A DNA stretch of 48,254 bases from contig JAGWBV010000010.1 in NCBI GenBank assembly GCA_021295715.1, forward strand, positions 1 through 48,254. Direction: 5' to 3'. The DNA is from Candidatus Poribacteria bacterium (lineage in GTDB: Bacteria > Poribacteria > WGA-4E > WGA-3G). Shown piece after piece: positions 26,921-43,264 of this stretch. The notes under the pieces are model-generated. The model was not told where the DNA came from. It saw only the letters and a list, made by a program, of their open reading frames with translations, and did no database searches. Each line of letters opens with the position of its first letter. Position 1 is the first letter of the stretch. The position numbers and the translations under genes are program-made.

Positions 26921-29236
26921 CTACGGCACTTCCAACGGAATATCCAATGTCTGTGGCAATAGACATTCGGTCTCATTACAAAGTTGGTAGGTGAGCTGTA
27001 GCATAATTGGAACATTTTTGTCGCGCTTCACATTCGGCTTCTGTTTTAACTGCAACGGAATCGTGAGGTTTCCTTCATAAACATTCAAAGGCTCGCTACT
27101 AAATTCAAAGTGTGTCGATCTCCCTTTCGGATACACGACATTGGCAAGTTCAAACGGAATATCAGCGTCCACGGTAATCGTTGTCGGGATCAAATTGTCT
27201 TGACCCGCTGGGTTCGCGTTAATATGCCACCCCTTAGCAATATTGAGTTGAAGCACCACATCGTATATCTTTTTGTTTTGGGCATTAACTTCAGCGGTCG
27301 CACTGATGAGTGATGGCGTTGTTCTAACGAGTTCTTCCTCTGCGGTTAAATAACGGTTGAGGGCAAAATGCATATACATGAAGGACGAAGGGCTTTGTGC
27401 CATAGAGTGAGCGAAACTCTGCAGCGTTTCTTCAGCGTAATGCCGATAATCCGCACCAAATGCCAATAGATTGGCAACAGCAACTGCATTACCAGACGGA
27501 ATTGCGGAGTCATAAGGTTTCTTGGTACGTACAATAAGATGCTTTGCATCCGCCTTCGTGTAATAGAACCCCCCGTTTTTGTCGTCCCAAAAAAGTTGAA
27601 TCATCGCATCAGTGAGTTCTTTCGCTGAATTCAACCACTCTTCATCACCGGTAGCCTTATACAACCCAAGCAAACCCCGGACAAAAAAGGCATAGTCATC
27701 AAGATACACATCCTGTTTCACCACACCCGCAGTATAGGTATGACACAATTCACCGTCGGGTTTTTTCAGGGTGTCAAGAATAAACTGCGCAGCTTTTGAT
27801 GCCGCGAGAAGATACTGCTCCTCGCCAAGTACCTGATAGCCGTAAGCAAGAGCGTCTATCATCAGACCGTTCCAATTGACAATGATTTTTGTGTCCAGCA
27901 ACGGGTATTCGCGATCAAAACGTGCCGTCAAGAGTTTCTCACGTGCAGATTCTACGTCCTTGAGAGCACCCTCCGCTGCTGTGCCGTTAGGGACATAGAG
28001 AACATATTTACCCTCAAAATTAGGTCCCTTGTCGACCCCGTACACATCAGCGAAACGTGCTGCTGCCTTTTGGTCTCCGAGAATTTGCTGAATCTCATCG
28101 GCAGTCCAGACGTAATATTTTCCTTCTTCGGCATCCGTCTCAGCGTCCAAAGCTGAATAGAATCCGCCCTCTGGTGCTGTCATCTCTCGGAAAATGAAAC
28201 TGAAGGTCTCTTCAGCAATCCGTCGATAGCGAGGTTCCTGTGTCAGTTGATGTGCATGGAGGTATAGTTTCGCCAATTGTGCGTTGTCGTAAAGCATCTT
28301 CTCAAAATGCGGAACGAGCCACTTTTCGTCAACAGAGTACCGGTGAAATCCACCACCTATCTGGTCATACATCCCACCGTAAGCCATCATATCCAGCGTA
28401 TGCGTCACCATCTTCAACAGTGATTCATTTTCTGTGGGAGGCGTTTGTAACTCCGATCTTCGTTCGTATTCACTTAGCAAAAATTCGAGATTCGCTGGGC
28501 TTGGAAATTTCGGCGCGCCACCAAACCCACCGTAGGCATGACTATAGGCGGGACGGAGATAGTCCACTGCAGCAGTCGTAAGCGATCTATCTAATGGTTT
28601 AGTAGTGAGTGCCGTAAACCCTCTGCTTGTCGCCAATTCAATAGTATCTGAAATCTGCTCTGCCGCTTCAATGACTTCCGCTTCTCGCGTTACCCACGCT
28701 TCATGCACCGCATCAAGAATAGTCGGAAACCCCGGTCTGCCCGGCACATCTGTCGGTGGAAAATAGGTACCAGCATAAAACGGTTTTAAATCAGGGGTGA
28801 GAAAAACAGAGTTGGGCCATCCGCCTCGTTGAATCAGAAGTTGCGTTGCTGTCATATAGATTTCATCGAGATCTGGACGCTCTTCTCTATCAATCTTAAT
28901 ATTGATAAAATCTCTGTTCATCATTGCGGCAATTTCTGGGCTTGAGAACACCTCCCGCTCCATGACGTGGCACCAATAACAAGTGGAATACCCGACAGAG
29001 AGAAAAATCAATTTGTTTTCTTTCTTCGCACGTTCTAATGCTTCATCACCCCACGGATACCACTCCACAGGGTTATGCGCGTGGAGCAACAGGTAAGGGC
29101 TGGTCTCATGAATAAGTCGATTCGTCCATTTCCAAGAGCCATCTGGATTCTTGAGTGCTGCCTCATCGGCTCCTACTATCCATACAAGATTGAGAAAAAG
29201 CAGACAGGTGAGAAACTTCTGTATTGTATTTTTCAT
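26921..29236 (-). CDS. DUF255 thioredoxin-domain protein (YyaL/SSP411-like) fused to DsbD-like domain
   Basis: 771 residues from the ATG at 29236 (AAGG upstream). A signal peptide, [20 protein letters not shown], is unusual for this family. Residues about 25-190 are the DUF255 thioredoxin domain with [20 protein letters not shown] and the redox motif CYWCHVM. A long (alpha/alpha) barrel follows ([57 protein letters not shown]). The last 130 residues resemble the DsbD N-terminal immunoglobulin-like domain, ending in [20 protein letters not shown] with a Cys pair. Export plus the DsbD-type tail suggest periplasmic thiol chemistry. Confidence 0.85.
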
Positions 29237-29331
29237 ACTGGAAACCTTTATTGTAAAAAGCAATATGCGATGAATCGCACTCCTCCAAACCTATGATACG
29301 ATTTTTGAAAAGTCCAATTCGCATAGCATGG

Positions 29332-30441
29332 TTATTGCACAAGTGCCTGCTGTGCTACCGAGCGGCCACGTTCTGTCAGCATCAACTGTGTTTCCTCCTG
29401 AGAGACGCAACGATTGTGCAGGGCGTATTTCACGACTTGGGTAGCGAAAGAAGGGTCCCAACGGAGATGCTCATGAAGATGTGCTATCTCCGACTCTGCT
29501 TCAGCTTCCGGAAGTCCTTCGTGATTAAAGAGGTGAATCACTAACATCGTTTGGGCAAATTCCCTTTTTTGGCGTGTTCGTCTCCGTGCGATAGCGATAA
29601 GTCCACGGTTCGGAACAACCAGAAAAATCAGCCCGAACACAAGGAGCGTCATTGTTGCAATCATCCCTGCAATAGAAACATCGAAGACGGACGCGAGCCA
29701 ATAACCACCTACAGCATTCATACTCCCAATAATCGCGCTCAGGGTAAGCATCAGTGAGAGCCTGTTTGTGATGAGATACGCCGTAGCAGGCGGTCCAGCG
29801 ATAAGAGCAACAACCAATATCGAACCAACGGCATCAAATGCTCCGACTGTTGTTACGGATACAAGGGTCATCAGCCCATAGTGAATTAGGGTAGGCGCGA
29901 ACCCCAACGTAGCTGCTAAACTTGCGTCAAAGGTTGCTAACTTCAACTCTTTGTAAAATAGCAGAATAAAGGCGAGGTTCAGCAGCAGAATCGTCCCCAT
30001 CACATATACAGATATGGGACCTAAATCGTATCCGAAAACATCTAACCGGTTAAGCGGCGCATAAGCGAGTTCACCGAGGAGGACAACATCCATATCCAAA
30101 TGAACGTTGCCTGCAAATCGAGAAATCAGGATCACCCCGATGCTGAAAAGGGCAGGGAACGTTAAGCCAATCGCGGCATCCTCTTTCACCAGTTTCGTCC
30201 GTTGCAGCAACTCAACGAAAACAACGGTGAGTACACCGGTTCCGGCAGCGGCAAGAATGAGAAGCGGCGACGACAGGCTTTTCGTAAGAAAAAAGGCGAG
30301 GACGATACCGGGGAGAATTGCGTGGCTAATGGCATCACTCATCAAAGTCATTCGCCTTAGCACTAAGAACACACCGGGCAAAGCGCACGCCACCGCTGTC
30401 ACAATCGCAATGAGTTGAATATCAAGATGCTCTTGTATCAC
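29332..30441 (-). CDS. Metal ABC transporter permease with C-terminal winged-helix-like domain
   Basis: 369 residues from a GTG at 30441. An ABC-3 family membrane protein with about eight helices; the family stretch LVLRRMTLMSDAISHAILPG is near the start, and LATFDASLAATLGFAPTLIH follows the coupling loop. After helix eight (LIFLVVPNRGLIAIARRR) an 80-residue soluble tail (EAESEIAHLHEHLRWDPSFA; TQLMLTERGRSVAQQAL) resembles a DtxR/MntR-type winged helix, as known for some Mn/Zn permeases. It works with the second permease, ATPase and binding protein upstream. No Shine-Dalgarno is visible at the start. Confidence 0.85.
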   Translation of the reverse strand: MIQEHLDIQLIAIVTAVACALPGVFLVLRRMTLMSDAISHAILPGIVLAFFLTKSLSSPLLILAAAGTGVLTVVFVELLQRTKLVKEDAAIGLTFPALFSIGVILISRFAGNVHLDMDVVLLGELAYAPLNRLDVFGYDLGPISVYVMGTILLLNLAFILLFYKELKLATFDASLAATLGFAPTLIHYGLMTLVSVTTVGAFDAVGSILVVALIAGPPATAYLITNRLSLMLTLSAIIGSMNAVGGYWLASVFDVSIAGMIATMTLLVFGLIFLVVPNRGLIAIARRRTRQKREFAQTMLVIHLFNHEGLPEAEAESEIAHLHEHLRWDPSFATQVVKYALHNRCVSQEETQLMLTERGRSVAQQALVQ

Positions 30442-30462
30442 TTTTTTAATTATGGAGTTTCT

Positions 30463-30493
30463 AACCTGTGCTCCGCTCCGCTTCGCACAGGTT
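30463..30493. terminator. 9-bp hairpin between the two permease genes
   Basis: AACCTGTGC ... GCACAGGTT with a 13-base GC-rich loop, 20 bases before the downstream permease start. It could be an attenuator, processing site or weak terminator between the genes. Confidence 0.4.
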
Positions 30494-30632
30494 TTCGCTT
30501 ATGCTATAGGTTCTTCTTAAAATCGGGCTCGTAGTTCGTAACGAAATGGAGAACGGATACTCAGAAAGGGCACGTCAAAGTCGTAACCGATGTAGTTCTC
30601 CTGCAAGGTATAATTAAAAAACCGTCACGTTT

Positions 30633-31571
30633 TTAGTCGTCCTGTGGCTCAGCATACGATCTACCACCATACCCCTCAACGGCTATACGCCGTTTGTTTC
30701 GCTGGTGCCGAAACCAGTCCCACAAAAGTCCACGATTCGGGGCAAAAATGATCGAGAATCCCACAACAACTGTTGCACACAACACAATCGTTGGGCCAGT
30801 CGGGATACGTGAAGCACTACTACTGATAATCGTTCCACTCACGCCTGCGAGTGCTCCAAAACCAGCAGCGAGAAACATCATCACGCTAAGCTTATTGGTC
30901 CACTGTCGTGCAGCGACCGCTGGCGCGACCAACATCGCACTCATCAAAACAGCACCGACAGCTTGCAAACCGAGAACGATCGCTATAACGAGGAGACTCG
31001 TCAACAGAATGTCAAGTGCACGGATCGGGAACCCAAGCGATGCAGCAAAACCATCATCAAAAACCAATAACTTCAACTCTTTCCAAAAAACAAGCATGAT
31101 GACGATTGCAGTGCCCCCGAGTATACCAATTGTCAACACATCGCTCTCCAGAATAGTGGCGGCTTGTCCGAAGAGAAACGTATCCAATCCGGCTTGATTC
31201 GCATTACCGGTCCGCTGAATCAGCGTATGTAGCACTAACCCGAACCCAAAAAAAGTGGACAGTATGATCCCAAGTGCGCTATCGTATTTGATACGCGTCA
31301 GCCTTACGATACCCAAAATGAGCAGTGTACCGAGCCATCCCGCAATTGCCGCACCGAGGACCAAAACCAGAGGGGTTTTACTTCCTGTCAGCAGAAATGC
31401 GATTGCAATACCGGGCAACGCGGCATGGGAAATGGCATCGCCGAGGAGACTCTGGCGACGCAAAACAGCATAAGTGCCGAGGGACCCGCTTACAGCACCA
31501 AGCAAGGCAGCACCCATGGCGACAATCAGAAGCGTATAATCAAGATGAGTAAGAATACTCAGATATTCCAT
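30633..31571 (-). CDS. Metal ABC transporter permease
   Basis: 312 residues from the ATG at 31571 (a TTG four codons upstream is possible). ABC-3 family: LRRQSLLGDAISHAALPGIA is the family motif, LLVFDDGFAASLGFPIRALD is the cytoplasmic coupling region, and LQAVGAVLMSAMLVAPAVAA lines the channel. About eight to nine membrane helices; a short charged C-terminus and no winged helix, in contrast to its partner at 29332. Together they would form a TroC/TroD-like heterodimeric channel for Mn, Zn or Fe. Confidence 0.9.
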   Translation of the reverse strand: MEYLSILTHLDYTLLIVAMGAALLGAVSGSLGTYAVLRRQSLLGDAISHAALPGIAIAFLLTGSKTPLVLVLGAAIAGWLGTLLILGIVRLTRIKYDSALGIILSTFFGFGLVLHTLIQRTGNANQAGLDTFLFGQAATILESDVLTIGILGGTAIVIMLVFWKELKLLVFDDGFAASLGFPIRALDILLTSLLVIAIVLGLQAVGAVLMSAMLVAPAVAARQWTNKLSVMMFLAAGFGALAGVSGTIISSSASRIPTGPTIVLCATVVVGFSIIFAPNRGLLWDWFRHQRNKRRIAVEGYGGRSYAEPQDD

Positions 31572-31646
31572 TTTTTCTGGCAATCAGCAGTCAGCAATCC
31601 GTCATCAGTAAAGATGTAAGCGTTTCAGTAACGTTTCTTTTTTTAT

Positions 31647-31698
31647 TGACGGCTGAAAGGTTTTTCATAGAAAGACTGCGCTGACGGCTGAAAGGTTT
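31647..31698. repeat. Short direct repeat TGACGGCTGAAAGGTTT
   Basis: Two copies 34 bases apart (31648-31664 and 31682-31698) between the ATPase and permease genes, within a stretch of CTGATTGCTGATAGCTGA-like simple repeats typical of these intergenic regions. Confidence 0.5.
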
Positions 31699-31734
31699 GC
31701 TACGCAACCCGATCTGATTGCTGATAGCTGATGG

Positions 31735-32475
31735 CTATTTCGTCATGAACGCGACACGCCCCCCGTAAGTTATTCGCAAATTTTCAGGTGTAAAGGTTTC
31801 ATCAACGGGTCCGCTTGCGATCCGACGAATGTTCAAAAGCATTACCCAATCGAAATACTCGGTTACCGTTTGTAAATCGTGATGCACCACGACAACGGTT
31901 TTTCCCTTTTCTCTGAACTCCTTAAGTAGCGTGACAATGGCGCGTTCTGTGGTAGCATCAACGCCCTGAAAAGGTTCATCCATCAAGTATACTGTAGCGT
32001 CTTGAACAAGAGCACGGGCAAGGAAAACCCGCTGTTGCTGTCCGCCAGAGAGTTGACTAATTTGCCGAGTGCTATATGCCTCCATACCCACCTTTTCCAA
32101 GGCATGCATGGCAAGCTCCCGCTCCTGCTTCCCGGGTCGTCGCACCCATCCGAGTGCGCCGTAACGTCCCATCATAACGACATCCAGCACGTTTGTTGGA
32201 AAATCCCAGTCAACCGTCCCCCGTTGCGGGACATACCCAACAATTCGGCGTTGCGCTTCATAAGGTTTGTCGTAAATCAAGATATTGCCTGCCGCAGGGC
32301 GCACCAGTCCCAAAATCGCCTTGATCAACGTCGTTTTACCCGCGCCATTGGGACCGACAATCGACAAGAGCACCCCAGGTGGTACATCCAAATCGACATC
32401 CCACAAGACAGGCTGATCTTGATAGGCAACTGTTAAATCTGTTACTTCAATGGCTTTCATTTCGGACGCTTGCAT
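31735..32475 (-). CDS. Metal ABC transporter ATP-binding protein
   Basis: 246 residues. Walker [13 protein letters not shown] (about 39-50), signature [15 protein letters not shown], Walker [13 protein letters not shown] and the switch [10 protein letters not shown] are all intact. It belongs to the Mn/Zn (TroB/ZnuC) class that powers the two ABC-3 permeases downstream. The first ATG at 32475 follows a dispersed repeat that supplies CGCAAGGTAAAATTAAAAAC; an ATG five codons later (32460) is an alternative. It is separated from the binding-protein gene by about 210 bases with an 11-bp hairpin. Confidence 0.9.
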
Positions 32476-32476
32476 G

Positions 32477-32545
32477 TTTTTAATTTTACCTTGCGGTTTG
32501 ATACGTTAGGTTTGGATATTGAAGTTCCTTTCCGTATATCTGAAG
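32477..32545 (+). repeat. Dispersed CTTGCGG repeat, copy 4 (head at a start codon)
   Basis: TTTTAATTTTACCTTGCGG at the head, TTAGGTTTGGATATTGAAG and TTCCTTTCCGTATATC after it. The head touches the minus-strand ATG at 32475, so read on that strand it supplies AAGGT before the start. Confidence 0.75.
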
Positions 32546-32552
32546 AAACACC

Positions 32553-32580
32553 GGATTTAGTCTGGGGATAGACTAAATCC
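32553..32580. terminator. Perfect 11-bp hairpin between binding-protein and ATPase genes
   Basis: GGATTTAGTCT, loop GGGGAT, AGACTAAATCC. Such hairpins after substrate-binding-protein genes often stabilise the upstream message or reduce read-through, so that the binding protein is made in excess. Confidence 0.5.
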
Positions 32581-32611
32581 ATTCCTTGTATTACATTGCA
32601 AAAACCCCTCC

Positions 32612-32638
32612 AAATGTAAAGCAAAGACAAATTATGCC
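32612..32638 (+). repeat. Second copy of the promoter-containing motif at 12203
   Basis: AAATGTAAAGCAAAGACAAA then TTATGCCA, against AATGTAAAGCAAAAACAAAT and TATGCTATAAT at 12204-12234. Here the -10 region is changed to GCCATTTA, so promoter activity is doubtful. Confidence 0.5.
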
Positions 32639-32688
32639 ATTTAAGGAAACCTAATTTCATCAGGGTCCACGGATTATGTTCTACCAAC

Positions 32689-33651
32689 TTAATCCTCCAT
32701 CATCGAACTGGTGGATGTACTCCGAGTGAGTGCAGTTACAATCGTATCAATGTTATGACGAACCATTCCGATGTAGGTGCCTTTAGGTGTTCCTTCGTTT
32801 CCCATAGCATCTGAGAAAAGCTCGCCACCGATTATTACATCAAAACCTTTTGAGTTCACAGCTGCCCGGACCGCTTCAAGACTCCTCGACGAAACAGAGG
32901 ATTCCACAAAAATTGCGGGAATGCGTCGCTCTGCAATAAACTTTGCCAACTCCTGGACATCAGCGATACCTGCCTCTGTTGCGGTGCTAATGCCTTGTAA
33001 TCCGCGCACCTCAAATCCATAAGCCTTCCCGAAGTAGTTAAAAGCGTCGTGTGCCGTTACGAGCACCCGTTGTTCAGGTGGCACACGTTCCGCCTGTGCT
33101 TTCACATATTCGTGCAGTTCTGCGAGTTTCGCGAGGTAGCGTTCAGCATTAGTGTAGTACATTAGTGTATTGTCCGAATCGAATTCACTGAGAGCATCGC
33201 GAATCTTTCCCACGGCTTCCATCCAAAGTGTTACGTCAAACCACAGATGCGGATCGTATTGCCCTTCAAATTCCGGTGGCGTCAGCAGCAGGCTCCGGTC
33301 AACTGCATCTGTTACGGCAACAGTTTTTGTATCTCCCGACATTTTGGCAAGAATGTCGCCCATTTTCGATTCAAGGTGCAGCCCGTTATAGAAGATGAGT
33401 TGCGCCGAAGTTAACCGCTGCACATCCCCCGCACTCGCCTTATAAAGGTGTGGATCTACCCCCGGTCCCATCAACCCTGTGACATCAACCCGTTCACCAC
33501 CAACATTTTTAACAACATCAGTAATCATACCGATCGTCGTGACAACGCGAAGTTTATCTCCAACGGAAGCATCAGGTGATTTCCCTTTTGGATCGCATCC
33601 AATGTACACAAATATGCATATTAAAAACAGTGATATGTATCTTCTCTGCAT
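32689..33651 (-). CDS. TroA/ZnuA-like metal-binding lipoprotein
   Basis: 320 residues from the ATG at 33651, four bases after the stop of the VIT gene. The signal ends in a lipobox (LICIFVYIGC), so it is a lipoprotein. The cluster A-I binding protein has metal ligands His in GPGVDPHLYK, His in YDPHLWFDV, His in LVTAHDAFNYFGKAYG and Asp in GGELFSDAMG. The His-His-His-Asp set and the lack of a His-rich loop resemble TroA (Zn/Mn) more than ZnuA or the Mn-specific PsaA type. It delivers metal to the two ABC-3 permeases. Confidence 0.9.
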   Translation of the reverse strand: MQRRYISLFLICIFVYIGCDPKGKSPDASVGDKLRVVTTIGMITDVVKNVGGERVDVTGLMGPGVDPHLYKASAGDVQRLTSAQLIFYNGLHLESKMGDILAKMSGDTKTVAVTDAVDRSLLLTPPEFEGQYDPHLWFDVTLWMEAVGKIRDALSEFDSDNTLMYYTNAERYLAKLAELHEYVKAQAERVPPEQRVLVTAHDAFNYFGKAYGFEVRGLQGISTATEAGIADVQELAKFIAERRIPAIFVESSVSSRSLEAVRAAVNSKGFDVIIGGELFSDAMGNEGTPKGTYIGMVRHNIDTIVTALTRSTSTSSMMED

Positions 33652-33655
33652 AATC

Positions 33656-34795
33656 TTAATTCCCAAAAAAGAAGTGTTCTAAAAGTTCACCAACGAGGTA
33701 GCCAACGCCTGCGACACCAAGCCCTACAACAAACATGTCAATACCACTACGAAACAAACCCCGCCCAGTGAAGATACTTCGGGCACCACCAACAGCAAAG
33801 TGGGACAACATCGCGAGCGTAAACGAGATCCAGATGGCAGCTGCTCCCCTTGTAAAAAGGAACGGTGCAACCGGAATGAAGGCACCGATAGCAGTCGCGA
33901 GTCCTGTAATCCACCCCTCTTTGAGCGGAGCTGTATGTAACTCACCTATTTTAAGTTCAGCTTGGACCTTTTCTGCCAGTGCTCTTTCTGGATCACTCAT
34001 CACTTCTTGTGCGAGTTCGCGAGCCTGCTCTTCGGGCATGCCCCGTGCGGCATAAATAAGTGAAAGTTCCTCTTCCTCAAGATCAGGCATGAGGCGAATT
34101 TCCTCTCTTTCGACTTCTATTTCGTGCTCATAAACCTCCTGCTCACTTTTTGCAGCGAGGTAGCCTGAAGCCCCCATAGACAGCGAGTCGGCGACCGTCC
34201 CAACGATGCCTGTCACGAGAATCGTAGAGACATCGGAGGTTGCCGCGATAACGCCGGCGACTAAACCGAAGTTCGCCGTTAATCCGTCGTTGAACCCATA
34301 AACGATGTTGCCTACCATACCTCCAGACTCGGTTTTGTGCCACGGTTCATCACTTGAGCCGGTAAGCTCCTGTAAACTTTTCGTATGCTGGGCAGACTCT
34401 TTGGCTAAAGCAAGTGCAGCCTCTTTGATATCCGTCCTCATGCTGTTCCTGTGAAGCATTAAATAGTCTTTGACTTCACTTGCCTCCTCATTCAACATCT
34501 GAGAAAGCGGGAACTCACCTCCAAATCGGCGAGCATACCACGCCATCAACCTTGCTTTCAATGTCGGACGATGCTTTTTAGCCTTTATATTGTATGTATC
34601 GAGCATTCGTTCCCACCGGTCCACATGTCGAGTTTCCACCACAGCAAGTTCGCTTAATATTTCTCTCCGCTTGGCGTCCGACTCAAGTTCAGCAAAAACG
34701 CCATATAGAAAACTGGCATCCACTTCGTCTTGCAAATAACCTCTCCACACCTTGATCGTTTTACTGTCCGGTCGAACCTGTTTTTGTTGTTCCAT
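33656..34795 (-). CDS. mbfA: Ferritin-like/VIT fusion, MbfA-type iron/manganese transporter
   Basis: 379 residues. Residues 1-150 are a ferritin-like (erythrin) helical bundle with ligand-type Glu/His (LQDEVDASFLYGVF, VVETRHVDRWERM, NEEASEVKDYLML, AKESAQHTKSL). Residues about 160-379 are a VIT1/CCC1 domain (GNIVYGFNDGLTANFGLVAG, TVADSLSMGASGYLAAKSEQ, then four to five membrane helices). MbfA proteins export Fe or Mn from the cytoplasm. It lies between the MntR-like regulator and the uptake system, so export and import share one locus. The last codons hold the ribosome site of the binding-protein gene. Confidence 0.85.
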   Translation of the reverse strand: MEQQKQVRPDSKTIKVWRGYLQDEVDASFLYGVFAELESDAKRREILSELAVVETRHVDRWERMLDTYNIKAKKHRPTLKARLMAWYARRFGGEFPLSQMLNEEASEVKDYLMLHRNSMRTDIKEAALALAKESAQHTKSLQELTGSSDEPWHKTESGGMVGNIVYGFNDGLTANFGLVAGVIAATSDVSTILVTGIVGTVADSLSMGASGYLAAKSEQEVYEHEIEVEREEIRLMPDLEEEELSLIYAARGMPEEQARELAQEVMSDPERALAEKVQAELKIGELHTAPLKEGWITGLATAIGAFIPVAPFLFTRGAAAIWISFTLAMLSHFAVGGARSIFTGRGLFRSGIDMFVVGLGVAGVGYLVGELLEHFFFGN

Positions 34796-34910
34796 TTTAG
34801 ACTCCCTTCAAATATACCTATCGCTCTTTGTTAGACCGTTGTGAAAGTTGCAACACGCTCACCTACTACAAAATGACCTTTACTGCCCGCTGATCGCCGA
34901 CTACCGACCG

Positions 34911-35576
34911 CTATTCCGGATCTTTCACTTTATCCACAAAAACCTGTTTCGCGACCTCACGCCCAATAACGACCTGCTGTCCAGCAACGTCGATAGTAAA
35001 GGGACCTGCAAACGGAGCAACTTCAATCACTCGGAATGCTGTGCCCGGGTAGAGATTGAAACTTCCTAAATGCCGAAGCATCGCCGAATCGGTGTCACTC
35101 ACTTCAGCAACAATGCAGGATTGTCCACTACACAAGTCTGTCATTGGAATGGATTCAGTTTTCGTTACAACGCCGTTTTTATCGGGTATCGGTGAACCGT
35201 GGGGATCGGCAGTTGGGTAGCCGAGAAACTCGTCCATTCGTGCCTCCACGTCTTCCGAAATGACATGCTCCAATTTTTCTGCTTCCTCGTGAACACCATC
35301 CCACGGAACACCGAGTGCCTTGAATAGATAAAGTTCCAATAAGCGATGGTGCCGGATAATTTCGAGTGCGATTGCTTTCCCAGTATCTGTCAGCGTAACA
35401 CCGCGATAGCGCTCGTGTCTTACCAGTTTCATCGTCTTCAGTTTTTTAATCATCCCAGTGGCAGACGCGGGCTTCACATTGAGGTATTCTGCTAAAATGC
35501 CGGTCGAAACTTTACCGACTTTCTCTTGCAATTTATAGATCGACTTGAGGTAATCCTCAGCTGCATGTGTAAGCAT
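34911..35576 (-). CDS. mntR: DtxR/MntR family metalloregulator
   Basis: 221 residues from the ATG at 35576 (GGAAAG upstream), a better choice than extending to 35657. MLTHAAEDYLKSIYKLQEKV and KPASATGMIKKLKTMKLV are the winged-helix DNA-binding part; HRLLELYLFKALGVPWDGVH and EEAEKLEHVISEDVEARMDE form the dimer/metal domain; DPHGSPIPDKNG leads into a C-terminal SH3-like (FeoA) domain ending in VIGREVAKQVFVDKVKD. Three-domain members repress metal uptake when Mn or Fe is bound. It is first in the locus and its own promoter carries the predicted operator, so it is autoregulated. Confidence 0.9.
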   Translation of the reverse strand: MLTHAAEDYLKSIYKLQEKVGKVSTGILAEYLNVKPASATGMIKKLKTMKLVRHERYRGVTLTDTGKAIALEIIRHHRLLELYLFKALGVPWDGVHEEAEKLEHVISEDVEARMDEFLGYPTADPHGSPIPDKNGVVTKTESIPMTDLCSGQSCIVAEVSDTDSAMLRHLGSFNLYPGTAFRVIEVAPFAGPFTIDVAGQQVVIGREVAKQVFVDKVKDPE

Positions 35577-35661
35577 CGTTCTTTCCAATCCGCAAAGGGA
35601 ACAGACAATGCCTTTAGTTTCCCACTGCGGTAAGTAAATATATGAGCATTTACCCATTCAG

Positions 35662-41932: not shown

Positions 41933-43264
41933 ATGAAATTTCGGGTTCTGGGAATAATCCTCGGAATACTACTATTAGCCGCATCGCTCTGCTTCGGCCA
42001 CGGTGACGAAGAGGTTGCCGAAGATCAGGTAGCGGTGAAGTCAACCGGCTACTGGATCTACAATGACATTGACAAAGGATTTGCTGAAGCAGAAAAGACA
42101 GGACAACCGCTGCTCATCGTCTTCCGCTGAGTGCCGTGAGAGTCCTGCCAAGGCTTCGACGAACAGGTTGTTCGTCACGATAAAGAGATTAAAGATTTAA
42201 TGGAACAATTCGTGCGTGTCCGTATTGTCCAAGGTAATGGTATGGACTTATCGCTGTTCCAATTTGATTATGATCTCACCTTCGCGGTATTTTTCATGAA
42301 TGCCGATAAAACCATCTACGGACGTTTCGGCACACGTGCTGAATACGAAAATGCGGCGAAAGACATTTCAATTGAAGGCTTCAAATAAGCACTTGAAGCC
42401 GCTTTGGCATTACACGAGGGATACCCGACTAATAAGGCAGTTTTAGCTGCCAAGACCGGACCTGCGTCAATAAAGAAAACACCAGAGGGATTCCCTGCGC
42501 TGTTACGTTATTCGGCAACCTTGGATTTTGATAGTCGGATTAACCAGCAATGCATCCACTGTCACCAGATTGGTGAGGCGCAGCGGGAGATCCACTGGTA
42601 TGACCGGAAGCCAATTCCAGACGAAATCCTGTATCCGTTTCCAATGCCAGATGTTTTGGGATTGCATTTTTCACCGAAGCATCGCGCAAAGATTAGTAAG
42701 GTGGTGTCGGGTTCCTCTGCTGAGAAAGACGGTTTCCGACGCGCAGACGAAATCTTGACCCTCGATGGACAGCCGATTATCTCAATTGCTGACGTGCAGT
42801 GGGTGTTACACCGCACACCGGAAAACACAACATTGCCAGCAACAGTCGATCGGCATGGTAAAGAGATTAACCTTATGCTCACGCTCAACCCGGGTTGGCG
42901 GAAAGGAAGCGACATCTCATGGCGCACGACAACAGGCGAACTACGGCTCGTTGCACTCGGTGGGATGGTGCTTAAAGACCTATCGGATACTCAGCGCCAA
43001 CGTAACAGTATTGGCGAAACGGAAATGGCACTGAACGTCGAGACTGTGAGTCGCGGTGGACGCAGGTCAAGCGAGCAGACTAATGCGCAAAAGGCAGGCA
43101 TCCGACGCGGCGACATTGTCATCGCTTACGGAGAGCGGACCGAGCGGTTGACAGAAAGTGGTATTATCGGATACGTGCTGCAGGACAAACCACAAGCGAA
43201 GACTTTACCCATAAAATTACTGCGAAATGGTGAGCAGATCGAAGTGAAATTGTCGCTTGAATAA
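41933..43264 (+). CDS. Thioredoxin / CxxCH / PDZ protein with two in-frame TGA codons (candidate UxxU selenoprotein), interrupted by one TAA
   Basis: One continuous 444-codon frame. AAAGGAG and ATG at 41933; signal peptide VLGIILGILLLAASLCFGHG. A thioredoxin-like domain follows, with the redox site reading LLIVFR-TGA-VP-TGA-ESC (codons 66 and 69), exactly where CxxC is expected. A perfect 7-bp hairpin with AGGTT loop follows (42158-42176). Further on are CIHCHQIG (207-214, a c-type haem motif), PDZ 1 (ISKVVSGSSAEKDGFRRADE) and PDZ 2 (AQKAGIRRGDIVIAYGERTE). A TAA at codon 152 (42386-42388), in a non-Cys position between GFK and ALEAALALHEGYP, breaks the frame and is not explained by selenocysteine. 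Absence of frameshifts argues for recent function. Alternatives: a pseudogene with three stops, or a sequencing error at the TAA. Confidence 0.65.
42158..42176 (+). promoter_or_regulatory. SECIS-like hairpin for TGA recoding
   Basis: GACGAAC, loop AGGTT, GTTCGTC: a perfect 7-bp stem with G in the first two loop positions, as in bacterial SECIS elements bound by SelB. The loop GG starts 26 bases after the second TGA and 35 after the first, both within the spacing usual for bacterial SECIS (about 16-37). Confidence 0.6.

Follow-up and report, generated by a model that had tools for sequence, protein, structure and literature searches.

The Trx7/PDZ family NF041199 is listed as a CxxU protein with one selenocysteine (Sec) in a 2026 review (PMC13188914). 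A review from 2022 has an entry for a 'PDZ domain-containing protein' with a Thioredoxin_7 domain and a CxxU motif, and it assigns proteins with one and the same domain to separate subfamilies when their Sec sites differ (PMC9312934). Among the new selenoproteins of the 2008 GOS study (PMC2398784) is a 'putative secreted serine protease MucD'; in a later paper this protein is given as a fusion of CxxC/U with PDZ (PMC9402790). We linked the NF041199, review and GOS names by domain and citation, not by sequence comparison. The UxxU motif, with two Sec residues, is known in other families (PMC2398784, PMC9312934); SelL (Shchedrina 2007, as cited in PMC2398784) and the GOS Prx-like 2 protein are UxxU selenoproteins. 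In the literature searched for Poribacteria selenoproteins, the two words co-occur in passing only.

We analyzed a window of 48,254 nucleotides (the whole stretch of DNA under study). It is contig C10 of a 5.14 Mb Candidatus Poribacteria MAG assembly (G000), which is 96% complete and whose named relatives are Candidatus Poribacteria MAGs. A preliminary description had proposed one unbroken 444-codon frame with TGA at codons 66 and 69. Both TGAs are at these codons, and the sequence around them reads FRUVPUESC, as it had said, but a TAA at codon 152 interrupts the frame (Table 1). In a scan of the whole 48 kb, in both directions, a TGA qualified if the frame was open for 40 or more codons ahead of it and for 50 or more past it, and if a GG-loop hairpin followed. 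Codons 66 and 69 were the sole TGAs returned. In a Pfam search, the gene product matched PF13899 with 58.4 bits and PF13180 with 52.8 bits, in two PDZ stretches, and gave no match to a cytochrome domain. A CxHCH motif, which might bind haem, is invariant across 24 aligned sequences; the CxxCH-type motif and the two PDZ domains of the preliminary description are both found in the product. The same description did not know this architecture as a selenoprotein family. It is in fact already named 'Trx7/PDZ domain-containing (seleno)protein': with the stops read through, the product scores 394.3 bits against the NF041199 profile (curated cut-off 300), and the intact gene of a sister genome (L021) scores 397.5 bits. 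A PADLOC search gave no match. Elsewhere in the window, positions 26921-29263 encode a 780-amino-acid protein with a thioredoxin-like N-terminus, and positions 29332-35657 hold a metal-type ABC transporter gene cluster with a DtxR/MntR-like regulator, both named from sequence features only.

Table 1. Features of the Trx7/PDZ locus, in window positions
Feature	Position	Strand	Remarks
Trx7/PDZ (seleno)protein gene	41933..43264	+	443 codons plus stop; frame start 41933, terminal stop 43262-43264; in-frame TGA, TGA, TAA
N-terminal signal-peptide-like segment, codons 1-23	41933..42001	+	
Thioredoxin_7 domain, residues 41-124	42053..42304	+	
TGA codon 66, predicted Sec	42128..42130	+	extra chalcogen residue, 3 before the canonical active-site position
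TGA codon 69, predicted Sec	42137..42139	+	in alignment, on the canonical N-terminal Cys of the thioredoxin-fold active site
TGC codon 72, invariant Cys	42146..42148	+	in alignment, on the second CxxC cysteine
SECIS hairpin, 7 bp, loop AGGTT	42158..42176	+	
In-frame TAA, codon 152	42386..42388	+	Gln in the closest sister; this genome only
CxHCH, residues 207-211, putative haem-c-type motif	42551..42565	+	invariant
PDZ domain 1, residues 242-317	42656..42883	+	second PDZ match further C-terminal

With its stops read through, the frame has full-length homologues in 12 congeners (80-94% identity) and, at a greater distance, in 4 other genomes (69-76% identity); all of these have two TGAs and no TAA. 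Further two-TGA homologues share 34-55% identity, and a few distant ones have one TGA or none. The double-Sec form was found in Poribacteria, some Planctomycetota and some Verrucomicrobiota. Aligning the TGA positions with homologues had been proposed as a check on the reading of these codons as Sec, and the outcome supports it: related MAGs keep both TGAs, and Cys stands at both positions in 39 of the 88 homologues in our tree. The remaining rows are UxxU (33) and CxxU (16) at positions 66 and 69, and UxxC (UxxCxxC) was found in none of the 88. The 80 named homologues divide into 28 UxxU, 15 CxxU and 37 CxxC, the last made up of 34 sorted by script and 3 placed by eye and in the tree set. Cys at position 72 is invariant in the aligned set, and the general motif across homologues is [C/U]xx[C/U]xxC. 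By the most economical count, the form changed 10 times on the 88-row tree, which is a quick tree with many weak forks. The lack of UxxCxxC suggests a testable order of Sec acquisition. Against its congeners, the window gene has a dN/dS of 0.06-0.10, which gives no indication of long decay or relaxed selection. The two in-frame TGAs are beyond chance, being kept in congeners and in distant relatives, and the hairpin behind them is the most conserved synonymous stretch. These data suggest that the locus encodes an exported redox protein with two Sec residues where related bacteria have Cys.

In bacteria, the loop of a SECIS is at most a few dozen nucleotides away from the UGA. The perfect 7-bp hairpin reported in the preliminary description is exactly GACGAAC-AGGTT-GTTCGTC; it starts 18 nt after the second UGA and 27 nt after the first, and its loop carries G, as expected of a bacterial SECIS. 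All 7 pairs form in 47 of the 49 distinct Sec-form sequences (99.4% of cells) and in 0 of the 39 Cys-form sequences (29.3% of cells). When the 49 Sec forms were recoded synonymously in 2000 draws, the full hairpin formed in a mean of 2.2 and a maximum of 9. Pair 5 occurs as AU, GC, GU, UA and CG, and pair 6 as AU, GU and GC. In a 19-row subset, the pair counter gave 99.2% of cells paired and every slid version was worse; 5 cells had changed on both sides, versus 1.2 in shuffles. Across 17 Poribacteria genes, the synonymous difference over the ten hairpin codons was 0.174, the minimum of the gene, where the mean is 0.70 (SD 0.12). Folding the 60 or so nucleotides after the TGAs, a further check proposed at the outset, turned out to be uninformative: the 63-nt SECIS region of the window folds no more stably than shuffled sequences do (z -0.69). 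Since the fold energy is unremarkable, the case for a SECIS rests on conservation and covariation; by these measures the hairpin is a conserved SECIS with compensatory changes. The hairpin sits at the same position in the CxxU and UxxU forms, so one element would serve one or two UGAs. A single hairpin behind either one UGA or two UGAs 9 nt apart offers a natural test of SECIS double use.

The preliminary description took both redox cysteines to be Sec, with UxxU equal to the thioredoxin CxxC. Positions 66 and 69 are indeed both Sec/Cys positions, but alignment to solved thioredoxin folds leads us to reject that equation. When the domain is aligned with the solved structure 3fk8 (E 4e-6), residues 69 and 72 take the places of the two CxxC cysteines, in this order. 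With the CxxS of AGR2, residue 69 falls on the C and residue 72 on the S. Residue 66 aligns with a non-Cys in solved thioredoxin folds. A helix is predicted at 70-79, directly after residue 69 (model mean pLDDT 81.3, lower around the motif). Since residues 69 and 72 lie on CxxC and the helix runs from 70, we infer that the canonical pair is U69-x-x-C72 and that U66 is an additional upstream residue. This moves the active site: Sec69-x-x-Cys72 would be canonical, and Sec66 extra. Whole-model TM-scores to PDB entries were low, and among the matches listed nearly all were HtrA/DegP/RseP-type PDZ proteins.

We consider it very probable that the window holds a Poribacteria member of the Trx7/PDZ family with Sec at 66 and 69, specified via one hairpin in an exported U66-x-x-U69-x-x-C72 protein, and that this copy is interrupted by TAA152. 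SelB and Sec-tRNA, recruited by the single hairpin, would decode both UGAs in turn. The product would be an exported thioredoxin-fold protein that combines this three-residue centre with CxHCH and two PDZ domains. U69, the canonical nucleophile, and C72 would probably form the thioredoxin couple. U66 may act as a third partner, either in a diselenide with U69 or as a relay, and the PDZ domains would probably hold protein partners or substrates.

The TAA at codon 152 lies between IEGFK and ALEAAL and, among the homologues compared, occurs in G000 only. Codon 152 is Gln in the closest relative (G013) and in several others, so the TAA is most simply one C-to-T change. The gene belongs to a conserved order of TPR gene, chorismate-lyase-like gene, selenoprotein gene, DUF3500 and methyltransferase. 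At this same locus it has been deleted in G010 (on one contig), G007 and G031/G037, with 23-39 codons left, and these genomes retain SelA and tRNA-Sec despite the deletion. In G016, G036 and G026, what remains of the gene stops where the contig stops, and these cases were left out of the deletion count. In G031 (L262) and G037 (L263), the first 31 selenoprotein codons run straight into DUF3500 from residue 32; DUF3500 apparently reuses the selenoprotein signal peptide there, as a fusion. Given the deletions in several congeners, the gene is dispensable and has been repeatedly lost. TAA152 may be a recent nonsense mutation in a repeatedly deleted gene, or an assembly error.

Machinery for Sec is widespread among the genomes searched. 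SelA scores above the cut-off in 87 of 118, nearly all congeners included, tRNA-Sec was found in 96 of 118, and SelD in 54 of 60, with one in-frame UGA. The preliminary description had named selB and selD among the genes to look for in the source genome, and both are present and intact in G000 (349.6 bits for selB; 359.5 bits for selD, with one UGA). Poribacteria SelD is itself encoded with an in-frame UGA (VKCAGUASK; in G000 at C29:59245-60168, L245). The tRNA-Sec of G000, with anticodon UCA, lies behind selB at C54:31679-31784 (L002; L019 9680-9785), and the order selB, selC, lipA is kept in close relatives. The selC of G000 is identical to its relatives over 76 nt, followed by a deletion up to lipA, inside the contig, so that the 3' side of the T-arm, the acceptor strand and the spacer to lipA are missing. 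For selA, the G000 assembly gave no match; two weak SelA profile matches (47.8 and 25.3 bits, cut-off 267.9) lie far too low for us to count them as SelA. The conserved selA neighbourhood breaks off at the end of the short contig C150, which makes the absence uninformative and rules it out as a sign of gene loss.

We searched G000 for EF-Tu as a yardstick for assembly errors. The only true tuf is split at residues 103/109 by a small deletion (C60:27780-28939; L255, L253, L011), and this frameshift is likely an assembly error. Since tuf is broken, small errors exist in the MAG, and the selC truncation and TAA152 could be assembly errors as well; we therefore did not accept these two defects as proof that the Sec trait was lost. 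A divergent EF-Tu-like protein of 386 amino acids (211 bits) is encoded next to a hisA-like gene at C23:60970-62106 (L015, L254) and has NTDG in place of NKxD as an altered G4 motif.

With three in-frame stops, the window copy could be read as a pseudogene or a chance frame, the TGAs being ordinary stops and no selenoprotein being made. However, two TGAs stand at fixed positions across phyla, the SECIS covaries, and the Cys homologues are without the hairpin. For the family, conserved TGAs, Sec/Cys exchange and SECIS covariation refute such an origin, and we regard it as extremely improbable here. What G000 does with the gene is a separate matter, since TAA152, the truncated selC and the absence of selA from the assembly mean that this genome may not make the protein. 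One could propose that G000 has just lost Sec decoding whole, with the 3' end of selC deleted, selA gone and the first stop already in this gene. The loss of the 3' part of selC inside a contig, the unmatched selA that nearly all congeners possess, and a TAA152 seen in G000 alone fit this proposal. Still, we think it unlikely: because the region around selA is cut off where C150 ends, the missing gene carries no information; a break in the only true tuf would be intolerable for a living cell and points to small deletion errors in the MAG; selB is intact, as is selD with its UGA, and the dN/dS of the selenoprotein gene is still low.

Alternatively, this gene alone may be dying in G000, with Sec decoding still in place and the defects of selC and selA being assembly artefacts. 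The genomes that deleted the gene at the same locus yet keep SelA and tRNA-Sec provide a precedent, but a lone C-to-T difference could be a consensus error and dN/dS gives no sign of relaxed selection, and we hold this reading only tentatively. TAA152 might instead be a sequencing or assembly error in a strain whose gene is intact. The broken tuf indicates that the MAG contains errors, and the remainder of the frame is under constraint. TAA152, though, differs in kind from the error in tuf: there a short stretch was deleted, while the stop arose by clean substitution within a frame that is otherwise well conserved. We take an error to be a real possibility, short of an even chance. Either way, the window warns that an extra stop may stand in a MAG copy and come to light only by comparison.

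The double-Sec protein can be compared with several known systems. The nearest solved thioredoxin folds by sequence are the AGR2/TXNDC12/3fk8-type disulfide isomerase-like proteins, whose catalytic Cys aligns with residue 69; unlike the window protein, they are without Sec, CxHCH and PDZ. The VPGUxxT thioredoxin-like (seleno)proteins (NF041383 and NF041382) have a related Sec thioredoxin-like domain and match weakly over about 60-80 residues, with 27.8 and 23.2 bits, far under the cut-offs of 275 and 350. SelL and the UxxU Prx-like proteins share with the window protein a UxxU in a thioredoxin-like fold, and a diselenide is conceivable. SelL is nevertheless a different family: its related profile NF040769 does not match the window protein and reaches only 19.7 bits (cut-off 120) on one Cys homologue, and the canonical pair of the window protein would be UxxC (69-72), with U66 extra. 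The closest system is the NF041199 Trx7/PDZ family itself (PMC13188914, PMC9312934, PMC2398784), which shares the domains, Sec69 before the invariant Cys72, and a SECIS behind. The reviews give this family as CxxU with one Sec, whereas the window protein has Sec also at 66, in UxxUxxC. One could speculate that UxxUxxC Trx7/PDZ proteins form a double-Sec subfamily of their own, gained or lost on several occasions in three phyla through the addition of Sec66 to Sec69 proteins, in which a single SECIS decodes two UGAs spaced by 9 nt, and that the strain of the window is at the start of losing it, perhaps along with Sec decoding; we would not expect this whole scenario to hold. Since the CxxU and UxxU forms pass one profile and interleave in the tree, we take UxxU as a variant of NF041199 that goes beyond the single-Sec form in the reviews; it may have been reported earlier elsewhere. 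A well-supported double-Sec form is thereby added to a selenoprotein family that the reviews give with one Sec.
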